Positions 9,809-14,850 of a DNA stretch of 45,060 nucleotides are shown one piece after another; position 1 is the first letter of the stretch, and every line of letters begins with the position of its first letter. The stretch is taken from positions 1 to 45,060 of the forward strand of contig JAJTGZ010000020.1 of assembly GCA_021299385.1 (NCBI GenBank), given 5' to 3'. This DNA is from Phycisphaeraceae bacterium (GTDB lineage: Bacteria; Planctomycetota; Phycisphaerae; Phycisphaerales; UBA1924). Made by a program: the position numbers and the translations under genes. The notes under the pieces are model-generated. The model saw only the letters and a program-made list of their open reading frames with translations. It was not told the DNA's origin and did not search any database.

Positions 9809-10963
9809 ATGGCGTACCTCGCCCTGGCCCGCAAGTACCGTTCGCAGACCTTCACCGACCTCGTCGGGCAAGAGGCCATCGTCAAGACGCTCACCAGCGC
9901 CGTCAAACTCGGGCGCGTCGGGCACGCCTACCTCTTCACCGGCACGCGGGGCGTGGGCAAAACCTCCAGCGCACGCCTCTTTGCCGACCTGCTCAACAAC
10001 CCCGACGGCGACCCCGCCCTCCGCAAGGCCATCCTCAGCGGGCAGGACACCGACGTCATCGAGATCGACGCCGCCAGCAACAACAGCGTCGACGACGCAC
10101 GCGAGCTCATCGCCAACAGCGTTTACCGCCCACTCCGCGGCCGGCGAAAAATCTACATCATCGACGAGGTCCACATGCTCTCGATCAACGCCTTCAACGC
10201 GTTGCTCAAGACGATGGAAGAGCCCCCCGAGCACGTCGTCTTCATCCTCTGCACCACCGAGACGCACAAGGTCCCCGCGACGATCCAGTCGCGCTGCCAG
10301 CGCTATGACTTCCGCAACATCCCCCCAGCGATGATCGCCACGCACCTCGGTGAGGTCATCAAGGGCGAGGGCATCGACGCCGAGCCTGACCTGCTGCTGG
10401 CCGTCGCACGCCTGGGCAACGGCAGCATGCGCGACGCGCTGAGCCTGCTCGACCGCCTCCTCGCCTCGGGGGACAAGAAGCTCACCACCTCGATGCTCGA
10501 ACGCCTCCTCGGCCTGCCCGAGCGGGAACTGATCGTCCAACTGGTCGATTCCCTCGCCGCCGCCGACGCCGCAGGCGCGCTGGAGCGCACCGCCGAACTC
10601 CTTTCTAAGGGCACCAGCATCGACCAGTTGATGTCCACGCTGGCCGACCACCTGCGCGACCTGATGGTGCTGGCCGCGTGTGGCGAGCAGACCGACCTGG
10701 TCGATCTCTCGGGCGACTGGCGCGCCCAGGCTACCCAGCAGGCCGCACGCTTTGACCCGGCAGGCCTGGTGCACATGATCGCCCTCGTCGAGAGCGTCGC
10801 CGCGCGGGCCAAACTCTCCTCCTTCCCCCGCGCGCTCGTGGACGCGGCGGTCGTCCGCCTGGCGATGACCGAAAAACTCGCCGACGTTACCGCCCTGGCC
10901 CTGGCCACCACCGCAAGCCCAACCGCCACCGCGCCGGGAGCACCCCGCCCAAAAAAACCATAG
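9809..10963 (+). CDS. dnaX: DNA polymerase III gamma-type subunit (zero-frame dnaX product)
   Basis: A 384-residue clamp-loader ATPase. Visible motifs are Walker A GTRGVGKT (45-52), Walker B IIDEVHM (117-123) and the SRC motif (161-163, SRCQRYDF), with the RYRP-type start ARKYRSQTFTDLVGQE. This AAA+ subunit builds the complex that loads the sliding clamp and links polymerases to the helicase. The four-cysteine zinc module normally inserted after Walker A is absent: the segment reads ADLLNNPDGDPALRKAILSGQD. The zero frame ends RPKKP and then TAG at 10961-10963, immediately after seven adenines. Domain III is present, but the C-terminal tau region lies in the -1 frame (see the frameshift site and next entry). 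No Shine-Dalgarno sequence is visible before the ATG. Confidence 0.9.
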   Translation: MAYLALARKYRSQTFTDLVGQEAIVKTLTSAVKLGRVGHAYLFTGTRGVGKTSSARLFADLLNNPDGDPALRKAILSGQDTDVIEIDAASNNSVDDARELIANSVYRPLRGRRKIYIIDEVHMLSINAFNALLKTMEEPPEHVVFILCTTETHKVPATIQSRCQRYDFRNIPPAMIATHLGEVIKGEGIDAEPDLLLAVARLGNGSMRDALSLLDRLLASGDKKLTTSMLERLLGLPERELIVQLVDSLAAADAAGALERTAELLSKGTSIDQLMSTLADHLRDLMVLAACGEQTDLVDLSGDWRAQATQQAARFDPAGLVHMIALVESVAARAKLSSFPRALVDAAVVRLAMTEKLADVTALALATTASPTATAPGAPRPKKP

Positions 10964-11003
10964 AGGCGACCGAGCCGCCACCCCCGCGCTCGGCCGCCAC
11001 CTC
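10951..11003 (+). promoter_or_regulatory. candidate -1 ribosomal frameshift signal in dnaX
   Basis: A(10951) AAA AAA (10952-10957) is the X XXY YYZ slippery heptamer in the correct phase relative to the dnaX zero frame (CCA AAA AAA CCA TAG). The stop codon is one sense codon later. A hairpin follows after 5-7 bases: GAGG at 10963-10966 and GGCG at 10965-10968 can pair with CCTC (11000-11003) and CGCC (10995-10998), one A/C mismatch follows, then CCGAGC (10970-10975) pairs with GCTCGG (10988-10993). Slippage by -1 continues into an open frame to 11568. Transcriptional slippage, or a one-base length error in the A run, would produce the same outcome. Confidence 0.7.
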
Positions 11004-11568
11004 GCAACCTCCACCCCCGCCCGAACCCCCATCCAAACCCCCGCCCGTGCACACCCCCGCACGCGCACAGGTTCCTACACCCGATACACCACCGACCCCG
11101 ACGGCGATCCCCTGCGCCACCCCCCACGCATCCCCGGCTCAAGTCTGGGCCGAGCTCCTCGCCGCCGCGGGCGACAACGATCGGCTCAGCGCGCAACTCG
11201 AAAAACTCGAACTCGTCTCGCTCTCCCCGCAGCGTGCAGTCCTGGGGCACGCGCCGCGCAACAAGATCGCCGCCGAGCTTGCCCTGGCCCACGTCCAACC
11301 CCTCCTCGCCCGCGTTCTAGGGCACCCCGTCGCCGTGCTGCTCCAGCCGCTGCCTACCACCGAGCACCCCCGCCTTGTCCACGCACCATTGCCACCAGGC
11401 CAGCAGGCCGAGGCCCCAACCACCACCCCCGCACCATCGCCAGTATCACCCCCACCCCCGGCACCCGACCGCGCCGCACTCGACGCCGAGGCCCAGAACC
11501 CCCTGGTCATCCACGCGATGCAGGCCCTGGGCGCAACCATCCGCACCATCCGCCCGCGCACAGATTGA
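10957..11568 (+). CDS. dnaX: tau-specific C-terminal part of DnaX in the -1 frame
   Basis: Read from ACC at 10957 in the -1 frame there is no stop until 11568. This adds 203 residues to the first 383, a product of about 586 residues, a normal tau length. It begins with a proline-rich linker (TIEATEPPPPRSAATSQPP) and then a compact domain, from VWAELLAAAGDNDRLSAQLEKL through LSPQRAVLGH to HVQPLLARVLGHPVAVLLQP. This has the layout of the DnaX C-terminal domain that contacts the polymerase alpha subunit. A GTG at 11047 could start a separate short protein, but no ribosome site supports it and the linker is continuous with dnaX. A frameshifted tau product is therefore the better reading. Confidence 0.7.
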   Translation, partial: TIEATEPPPPRSAATSQPPPPPEPPSKPPPVHTPARAQVPTPDTPPTPTAIPCATPHASPAQVWAELLAAAGDNDRLSAQLEKLELVSLSPQRAVLGHAPRNKIAAELALAHVQPLLARVLGHPVAVLLQPLPTTEHPRLVHAPLPPGQQAEAPTTTPAPSPVSPPPPAPDRAALDAEAQNPLVIHAMQALGATIRTIRPRTD

Positions 11569-11714
11569 AACTACTCCAACACGCTCTGATTGATTCCCCT
11601 TGTGCAATTCGTGGCCCTGCAATATCAACACACCATCTTCCCCTCACCAAACCTCTTCTCTGCATTTCTACCTCCATACCTCCCGCCTCTGAGTGCATCC
11701 CCATACCCTCCCCC

Positions 11715-13007
11715 ATGACCCCGGCTAAGGACCTCTCCCCGCACGCACAGCCCGGCGTCTATCTCACCGACGACCTCCCAGGCATCGGCGGCCTGCTCAA
11801 ACAACGCGATGACGACTTCCTCGTCGAAGAAATACCCGCCTATCAACCCTGCGGGCAGGGCGAGCACATCTACCTCTTCGTCCAGAAAAAAGGCCTGAGC
11901 ACCCAGAACATGGTCCAGATGCTCGCCCGGCACTTCTGCGTGCCCCTCTCCGCCGTCGGGTATGCGGGCCTCAAAGACCGGCACGCCATCACGCGACAGG
12001 TCGTCAGCATTCACGCGCCGGGGAAGGTCCCCGAAGACTTCCCATCGATCAAGGACGACCGCATCGCCGTGCTCTGGTCGGACCTGCACACCAACAAACT
12101 CCGCCGGGGGCACCTGCTCGGCAACCGCTTCTCCATCCGCGTTCGGGGCGTCGCGCTCCGCGCGATCTTCGACGCCAAAAAAACCCTCGCCCGCCTCGAA
12201 GCCCTCGGCGTGCCCAACCGCGTCGGCCCGCAACGCTTTGGCCTGCTGGGCAACAACCACCTCGTCGGGCGCGCCCTGCTGCTGGGCCAGCACCAAGAAG
12301 CACTCGACCTCATCCTCGGCCCCGCCGAAGTCCCGGGCCTGAGCGAGGCCAACACCCACGCCCGCGCCTGCTACGCCGCAGGTGACTTTGCTGGTGCGCT
12401 TGAGGCCACCCCTCGCACGATGCTCACCGAGCAACGCCTGCTCCGGGCACTCGCACAAGGGCGCTCGCCCAAGCAAGCCTGCGCACGCATCGACCCGCTC
12501 GCGCTCGGCTTTTATATCTCCGCGACCCAGTCGGCGATCTTCAACCGCATACTCGACGGCCGCCTCTCCGCCGGCACACTTGCGCAACTGCTCCCGGGCG
12601 ACCTGGCGTACAAGCACGACAACGGCGCGGTCTTCCCGATCACCGACGCCGAGCTTGCCGATCCGGACGTTGCCCGCCGGCTCGCCAAGGGCGAGATCGC
12701 CCCCAGCGGCCCGATCTGGGGCCCGGCTATGCCCCGCGCGGCCCTTGGCATCGATCAGGCAGAACTCGCCGCGCTCGCCACACTCGACCTTACACCCGAG
12801 CGCATCGACCTGCCCATGCGCACCGCCGACGCCCCCGGCAAGCGACGCCCACTGCGCGTGCCCATCACCCACACCGACCTCGAAGCAGGTGGCGACGAGC
12901 ACGGCCTCTACATCCGCCTCGCCTTCGACCTCCCCCCAGGCGCCTACGCCACCGTCGTCATGCAAGAAATCATGAAAACCAACCCCCAACTCGACGAACA
13001 TACATAA
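11715..13007 (+). CDS. truD: tRNA pseudouridine(13) synthase TruD
   Basis: A 430-residue TruD family enzyme that converts uridine 13 of certain tRNAs to pseudouridine. The diagnostic motif is VGYAGLKDRHAITRQ, with catalytic Asp88 in GLKDR. Other family landmarks are DDFLVEEIPAY near the N-terminus, HIYLFVQKKGLSTQNMVQML, and a GNRFSIRVRG / NRVGPQRFGLLGNNHLVGRALL block. The ATG at 11715 matches the family start; upstream in-frame codons are low-complexity C-rich spacer. No Shine-Dalgarno sequence is apparent. The 146-base gap after dnaX holds no gene. Downstream, an AACGTT-centred palindrome starts within ten bases of the stop and probably terminates the transcript. Confidence 0.92.
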   Translation: MTPAKDLSPHAQPGVYLTDDLPGIGGLLKQRDDDFLVEEIPAYQPCGQGEHIYLFVQKKGLSTQNMVQMLARHFCVPLSAVGYAGLKDRHAITRQVVSIHAPGKVPEDFPSIKDDRIAVLWSDLHTNKLRRGHLLGNRFSIRVRGVALRAIFDAKKTLARLEALGVPNRVGPQRFGLLGNNHLVGRALLLGQHQEALDLILGPAEVPGLSEANTHARACYAAGDFAGALEATPRTMLTEQRLLRALAQGRSPKQACARIDPLALGFYISATQSAIFNRILDGRLSAGTLAQLLPGDLAYKHDNGAVFPITDAELADPDVARRLAKGEIAPSGPIWGPAMPRAALGIDQAELAALATLDLTPERIDLPMRTADAPGKRRPLRVPITHTDLEAGGDEHGLYIRLAFDLPPGAYATVVMQEIMKTNPQLDEHT

Positions 13008-13286: not shown

Positions 13287-14765
13287 TCACCCAGCGCTGA
13301 TGTCTCCAACGCCCCGAAACGCCGCCAGCACACGCTCCTTGCTCTCGGCCCGGTCGATGATCGGCGCGGGGTAATCCAGCTTTGCCAGCACCTGCATCGG
13401 CGCACTCTGCGGCTCATGTATGAACTCGGCCGGCACGCCCCGCAGCTCGGGCACAAACTCCTTGATGAACGACCCATCAGGATCAAACTTCGCGCTCTGC
13501 AGCGCGGGGTTGAAGATGCGAAAGTACGGCGCCGCATCGGTCCCCGTGCTCGCGGCCCACTGCCAGCCCCCGTTGTTCTGCGAGAGGTCGCCGTCAACAA
13601 GGTGCCGCATGAAGTGCCGTTCACCCTCGCGCCAGTCGATGAACAGGTCCTTGCTCAAAAACATCGCTGTTACCATCCGCAGGCGGTTGTGCATCCACCC
13701 GGTCTTGAGCAGCTGCCTGCACCCGGCATCAACGATCGGGAACCCCGTCAGCCCCTGCTGCCACGCGTGCAGGTGCGCCCGGTTGTCGCTCCAGACGATC
13801 CGCTCCGTCGCCGGCTTGAAGGCACGCCCCCTGCTCAACCGCGGGAACGCCCAGAGCAGGTGCTTATAAAACTCACGCCAGAGCACCTCGCTGATCCAGG
13901 ACGCGCACCCCGCCTGCCCACCATCAAGGCTCCCGCCGTTCGCCTGCGAGGCCAGCCGTAAACACTCCCGCGCCGAGAGCGCGCCAATCGCCAAATACGG
14001 CGACAGCCGGCTCGTCCCCTCCACCCCCGGCGTGTTCCGATCGTCCTTATACCCGCGCACACGCTGATCCAAAAACCCCCGCAGCCGACCGAGCGCATAC
14101 TCCTCCCCCGCAGGCCAAAGCCCCGCATCAACGCCCGACACAAACCCCGCGACCGATGCGGGCACATCGTCGCTGTTGATCCCCGTCGGCGCCTGCTTGC
14201 CCGGCACGGGCCAGACCGTTACGCCGCACGCCGCACCAGGCCCGCCGATGCCCCCACGCTCGAGCACCGTGCTCACCCACTTCTTCTTAAAGGGCGTAAA
14301 GACCGTGTACGCACCACCATCACCCGTGCGAACCTCCCCAGGCTCGAGCGCGGCCTGGTCATGGTACAGGTGCAGCCGCCCACCCTGTGCACGCAAACAA
14401 ACCTCCACCTGCTCATCCCGCTTCACCTCGTTCACCTCATACTGCCGGTTCGCATACACACCCTCGGCACCAACCTCCCGCGCCACCTGTGCCACCACCC
14501 CAGGCGTCGCGCGAAAGTCCGCCGACGTGCGCACCAACAGCGGGATGTTCAGCCGGGCCAGGCTCTCCTTGAGCACCCCAAGCGTCCGCAAAATCAACTC
14601 GATCTTCGCCGGCGACTCATCATGCTCCCCCCACTCCCCAGGCGTTACAACAAACAACCCCACCACCCCACGACCACCCTTGCCACCCCCCGCAAGCGCG
14701 GCGTGGTACAACCCCGAGTTGTCGTGCGTCCGAAGATCAACCCGGAACCAATGGAGCGTTCGCAT
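13287..14765 (-). CDS. class I deoxyribodipyrimidine photolyase
   Basis: A 492-residue FAD flavoprotein that uses blue light to split UV-induced pyrimidine dimers. The N-terminal Rossmann domain starts LHWFRVDLRTHDNSGLYHA, as in photolyases and cryptochromes. The C-terminal FAD domain shows WISEVLWREFYKHLLWAFP, GLTGFPIVDAGCRQL, TGWMHNRLRMVTAMFLSKDL and NNGGWQWAASTGTDAAPYFR, the standard FAD-binding and electron-transfer tryptophan regions. The ATG at 14765 is preferred over an in-frame start four codons upstream because the family starts at MRTLHWFR. It is transcribed divergently from a MerR/cobalamin-domain regulator, which suggests light- or cobalamin-dependent control. The exact lesion specificity (CPD) is inferred from the class. 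Confidence 0.93.
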   Translation of the reverse strand: MRTLHWFRVDLRTHDNSGLYHAALAGGGKGGRGVVGLFVVTPGEWGEHDESPAKIELILRTLGVLKESLARLNIPLLVRTSADFRATPGVVAQVAREVGAEGVYANRQYEVNEVKRDEQVEVCLRAQGGRLHLYHDQAALEPGEVRTGDGGAYTVFTPFKKKWVSTVLERGGIGGPGAACGVTVWPVPGKQAPTGINSDDVPASVAGFVSGVDAGLWPAGEEYALGRLRGFLDQRVRGYKDDRNTPGVEGTSRLSPYLAIGALSARECLRLASQANGGSLDGGQAGCASWISEVLWREFYKHLLWAFPRLSRGRAFKPATERIVWSDNRAHLHAWQQGLTGFPIVDAGCRQLLKTGWMHNRLRMVTAMFLSKDLFIDWREGERHFMRHLVDGDLSQNNGGWQWAASTGTDAAPYFRIFNPALQSAKFDPDGSFIKEFVPELRGVPAEFIHEPQSAPMQVLAKLDYPAPIIDRAESKERVLAAFRGVGDISAG

Positions 14766-14850
14766 GCCAGCCTCCACCTCACCCCAAAAAGACCTACTCA
14801 GAGTCCGCAGATACTCACAAAATAGCCCAGGGGTCGGGAAAAATCAGGTA

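Follow-up and report, generated by a model that had tools for sequence, protein, structure and literature searches.

The dnaX gene of the window (the whole stretch of Phycisphaeraceae DNA analysed here, 45,060 nucleotides) is very probably a two-frame gene expressed by programmed −1 ribosomal frameshifting, with the order of its products reversed with respect to E. coli. An earlier note on this DNA had proposed that gamma arises by termination and tau by a −1 shift. The inverted order is supported by a layout common to 122 of 130 informative family genes, the exchange of one slippery heptamer for another, a Shine-Dalgarno (SD)-like motif upstream, a stem downstream, and a −1 frame under purifying selection that is homologous to the tau tail.

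Layout of the gene and proposed decoding

The window is placed in the Phycisphaerales, its named relatives being 64–66% identical. The zero frame of dnaX (9809–10963, + strand) runs from ATG 9809 to TAG 10961–10963 and encodes gamma, a 384 aa product composed of AAA+ domains I–II, domain III and a 33-residue tail. This product is identified as DnaX by TIGR02397 (372 bits, cut-off 250), scores 410.9 against the NF004046 cut-off of 400, and matches DNA_pol3_delta2, DNAX_ATPase_lid and DNA_pol3_gamma3 in Pfam; its N-terminal clamp-loader AAA+ domains lie above the curated cut-off. Direct reading of the zero-frame codons around the site gives ...CGC CCA AAA AAA CCA TAG, where the stop (10961–10963, +) stands one codon past an in-phase A AAA AAA heptamer (10951–10957) that overlaps another in-phase heptamer, C CCA AAA (10948–10954), the whole site spanning 10948–10957 on the + strand. 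Starting at 10957, where the A run ends, the −1 frame stays open for 203 codons up to TGA 11566–11568 (10957–11568, +); read after a −1 slip, it would provide a proline-rich linker and the tau C-terminal domain (203 aa), and the shifted product, of 383 + 203 = 586 aa, would be tau. The position of TAG 10961 directly after the in-phase A7, the 203 open codons and products of about 384 and 586 residues had all been given in the earlier note, and our reading and computed lengths agree with it. The gene that comes after dnaX is truD (11565–13007, +; PF01142, 304 bits) and not ybaB, and beyond truD there is a DNA photolyase gene in opposite orientation (13287–14777, −; PF03441, PF00875); at several related loci the sequence 3′ of dnaX resembles the start of ybaB.

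In the mechanism that we propose, ribosomes that keep the frame would reach the TAG and release gamma, while a fraction of ribosomes would be slowed by the stem, which begins 7 nt past the heptamer, and by 16S rRNA contacting the SD-like motif. On these slowed ribosomes both tRNA-Lys would move back one base on the A AAA AAA heptamer, and reading of the −1 frame would then continue to 11568 to yield tau. In E. coli, the C-terminal region of tau binds DnaB and the polymerase. The ribosome as the place of the slip, the efficiency of the slip and the resulting tau:gamma ratio are what we infer from the sequence.

Slippery heptamer and putative stimulators in the family

Of 150 genomes sampled from the same family, 141 yielded a dnaX gene, and these represent 71 of 74 genera. 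We read 133 loci from the genus and the family, and the 130 that extend past the site are informative. The layout of the window, with an in-phase heptamer, the end of the zero frame and a continuing −1 frame, is shared by 122 of them, in five of which the −1 frame runs off the contig, and all three dnaX genes of the genus carry A7. The comparison with related Phycisphaerae suggested in the earlier note finds the heptamer, the stop and the stem conserved in the family. Relatives with an uninterrupted dnaX, which the note had held to speak against its reading, do exist (8/130), but the slippery-site layout is kept by all the others. A signal common to nearly all members of the family argues for a real programmed frameshift and not for a sequencing error.

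Among the 122 interrupted genes, the heptamer is A AAA AAA in 104, G GGA AAA in 16 and C CCA AAA in two, and every one of them (122/122), like the window, follows the X XXY YYZ rule in the zero-frame phase. Judged from these three types, what the family conserves is the tandem-slip rule itself. The A-type sites are A7 in 102 of 104 cases and A8 in two, never nine or longer, and their codon phase is the same in all 104, the run beginning at the third codon position. Elsewhere in the loci of the relatives, runs of at least seven A occur 11 times in 377,557 nt, a rate of about 3e-5 for each position, while such a run stands exactly at the dnaX slip site in 104 of 122 relatives; by this count, the A7 run at the slip site exceeds chance. 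In the 117 untruncated relatives the stop comes one codon after the heptamer in 100 and immediately after it (0 codons) in 13. Three loci of one genus (L120, L121 and L125) have G GGA AAA six codons ahead of the zero-frame stop instead of one.

The E. coli site, A AAA AAG, was found in none of the 122 interrupted family genes. The window genome carries both tRNA-Lys UUU and CUU, and a tRNA-Lys(CUU) gene was matched in 63 of 150 family genomes by a strict pattern that cannot show absence. We suggest that A AAA AAG could be avoided because AAG would be read by the CUU tRNA, which could not re-pair well on AAA. In E. coli constructs A AAA AAA is much less shift-prone than A AAA AAG (PMC5009743), which counts against the ribosomal frameshift reading.

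Upstream of the heptamer, at a distance of 10 nt, lies the SD-like motif GGGAG (10936–10940, +), a putative 5′ stimulator that is absent from the earlier note. An SD core is present at −18 to −11 in 80 of the 122 family genes, compared with 2–14 of 122 in other 8-nt windows, which places the motif about 7–10 nt upstream of the slippery site; it occurs in 6 of 69 uninterrupted and 1 of 21 long-A inverted comparison genes, and about a third of the family genes are without it by the simple pattern used. Downstream, a GC-rich stem-loop (10965–10998, +), the putative 3′ stimulator, follows the heptamer after a 7-nt spacer, bearing out the GC-rich stem that the earlier note had seen 5–7 bases downstream. 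The segment 10962–11030 folds with a minimum free energy of −20.8 kcal/mol (z −2.83; 1 of 200 shuffles equally good). Across the family, the mean z of the stem is −2.06 against −0.11 and −0.37 in control windows, and −0.14 and 0.08 in long-A genes (A≥9). The spacer measures 4–7 nt in 110 of 117 untruncated relatives, and in 85–92% of family sequences the positions of the 5′ arm (+14 to +21) are base-paired, with several pair types per position; 38% of family genes have no stem at z < −1.5. Thus the window has both a downstream structure and the optional upstream SD element of bacterial sites.

The Rfam model of the DnaX frameshifting element (RF00382) gave the window 11.8 bits, below its gathering score of 35; this sub-threshold match covers the full model length (10932–11002) on the right strand, and none of 18 relatives was matched. 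Independent contrasts on the tree, with seven well-supported regime changes, show associations of SD motif and stem that are not individually significant, and the weight of the statistics is on the within-family pattern.

The −1 frame and alternative readings

The notion that the −1 frame encodes a proline-rich linker and a DnaX C-terminal domain, put forward in the earlier note, is borne out by comparison with relatives. No curated Pfam or NCBIfam domain was found over the tau tail of the window product; its homology was instead established with an HMM that we made from the −1-frame tails of relatives, leaving out the genus. This HMM matches the window tail at 3e-20 and, with values as low as 3e-35, the zero-frame tau tails of uninterrupted dnaX genes from the family, order and class. 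In close family pairs the dN/dS of the tail is 0.07–0.43, substitutions by −1-frame codon position are 0.18/0.14/0.39, and the tails of the relatives have no stops in the −1 frame compared with 717 in the other two frames. Purifying selection, as read from these patterns, and homology to uninterrupted tau tails identify the −1 frame as the tau tail. In a clade with G GGA AAA (L106, L109, L110, L112, L119 and L134) the −1 tails are only 69–82 aa long, and those of L106, L109, L110, L112 and L119 (69–80 aa) have no clear similarity to the tau C-terminal domain, L134 being the exception; in this clade tau may be shortened or altered.

A gene that makes only gamma, with the tail as a decaying remnant or a separate polypeptide re-initiated, for instance, at GTG 11047, is a very improbable reading. 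The −1 frame does hold a GTG-started ORF of 173 codons, and the short tails just mentioned resemble the tau domain little, but the window tail is homologous to fused tails and under purifying selection, and the open −1 frame overlaps the heptamer instead of beginning at a start codon; the conserved heptamer, the SD spacing and the stem would also be left without explanation. Pseudogene decay was rejected on the family comparison and the dN/dS of the tail. The chance that the interruption is an assembly or sequencing error, the true run being A8 in a single continuous frame, is close to nil. Homopolymers are error-prone and the window genome is a draft in 111 contigs, but the same break recurs across independent genomes in the great majority of informative genes, and in the 16 genes with G GGA AAA it does not fall in a homopolymer, so base-calling error does not account for it. 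The longer A run in the true sequence that the earlier note had allowed for is excluded by the conservation of A7 in genus and family.

The alternative that bears on the mechanism is that RNA polymerase adds an A at the A7 run and that the A8 mRNAs are translated straight to tau. Such slippage is established at the A9 run of Thermus thermophilus dnaX and has been suggested for reversed dnaX genes with shorter runs, including the A7 of Chlorobium phaeobacteroides (PMC3711429). It is also consistent with the outgroups of the window in related families and classes, where most runs are A9–A10, occur in all three phases, have stops nearby in both other frames and lack the SD-like motif as well as the stem. 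The family sites, on the other hand, never reach nine A, keep a single codon phase, and can have G3A4 or C3A4 in place of A7, again in phase as X XXY YYZ; the SD-like motif and the stem accompany the short site only. A stop in the +1 frame within 15 codons is found in 95% of A≥9 genes but in just 18% of the family genes with inverted order, the outcome to be expected when no frame other than 0 and −1 is in use. The Thermus pattern, a run of at least about nine A and a stop close by in each of the alternative frames, is not that of the A7 window, and the Thermus-like slippage offered as an alternative in the earlier note fits the A9–A10 relatives and not the A7 family. Run length and phase, the SD-like motif, the stem and the unused frame together point to transcriptional slippage in the outgroups and −1 ribosomal frameshifting in the family as the most likely arrangement, and slippage at the A7 site of the window as unlikely.

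Known systems and evolution within the order

The reversed order of dnaX has already been published, and the window is a well-supported new lineage of a known kind. Antonov et al. (2013) described two-ORF dnaX in 17 genes from 12 genera, mostly with A10, and inclined towards transcriptional slippage (PMC3711429); according to Atkins et al. (2016), ribosomal frameshifting seems to be the source of tau in a few bacteria, whose gamma frame ends immediately behind the slip site (PMC5009743). In the open-licence papers covered, we found no reversed dnaX from Planctomycetota. Like the genes of this GeneTack cluster, the window has a zero-frame gamma stop right after the slip site and the tau tail in the −1 frame, and it shares with C. 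phaeobacteroides an A7 run and possible stimulators. The published reversed genes mostly have A10 and predicted slippage, whereas the Phycisphaerales family has A7, G GGA AAA or C CCA AAA together with an SD-like motif and a stem. E. coli dnaX (RF00382) also combines an in-phase X XXY YYZ heptamer, an upstream SD-like element and a stem a few nt downstream, likewise placed between domain III and the tau tail; it differs in that its site is A AAA AAG and not A AAA AAA, the window RNA falls below the Rfam threshold, and the products are exchanged, the shift making tau in the window. T. thermophilus dnaX has its A9 run in a comparable place and resembles the A9–A10 outgroups, whereas the window run is shorter, phase-locked in the family and replaceable by mixed heptamers, and its family does not keep stops in both other frames.

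Most of the other Phycisphaerae, and several Planctomycetota besides, have an A9–A10 run at the homologous place of dnaX; usually the zero frame encodes tau there and the other frames have stops close by (loci L140–L239, L273–L283, L301, L311–L317, L353, L358 and L364), and slippage of the Thermus type is probable, on these sequences, across much of Planctomycetota. A FastTree phylogeny of 229 DnaX N-terminal domains, built quickly and with many open forks, puts the changes of frame order (tau in the zero or the −1 frame) at 24 by best estimate and at least 16 on well-supported branches. Many of these changes fall among A9–A10 genes, in which selection should be almost indifferent to the order provided that the transcripts vary in length. 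The run-length class changes 12 times in all; the short-site regime originates at the base of the family or close to it and appears again in single lineages elsewhere in the order (L148, L153, L161/L162, L184/L186 and L191). Within one order, dnaX thus rather likely switched from transcriptional slippage to ribosomal −1 frameshifting at or near the family base and a few times elsewhere, the tau-by-frameshift order then becoming nearly fixed. This apparent switch within an order is less expected than the reversed order itself.

These more than 200 dnaX genes form a large natural series that retains both products throughout but varies in the decoding step and in which product is the default, and transitions between slippage and ribosomal frameshifting become testable with reporters. 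Routine annotation of such genomes likely truncates tau or calls dnaX broken. Within the family, the heptamer type changes eight times at best estimate, and at least three changes, concerning the A type, are forced by well-supported branches.
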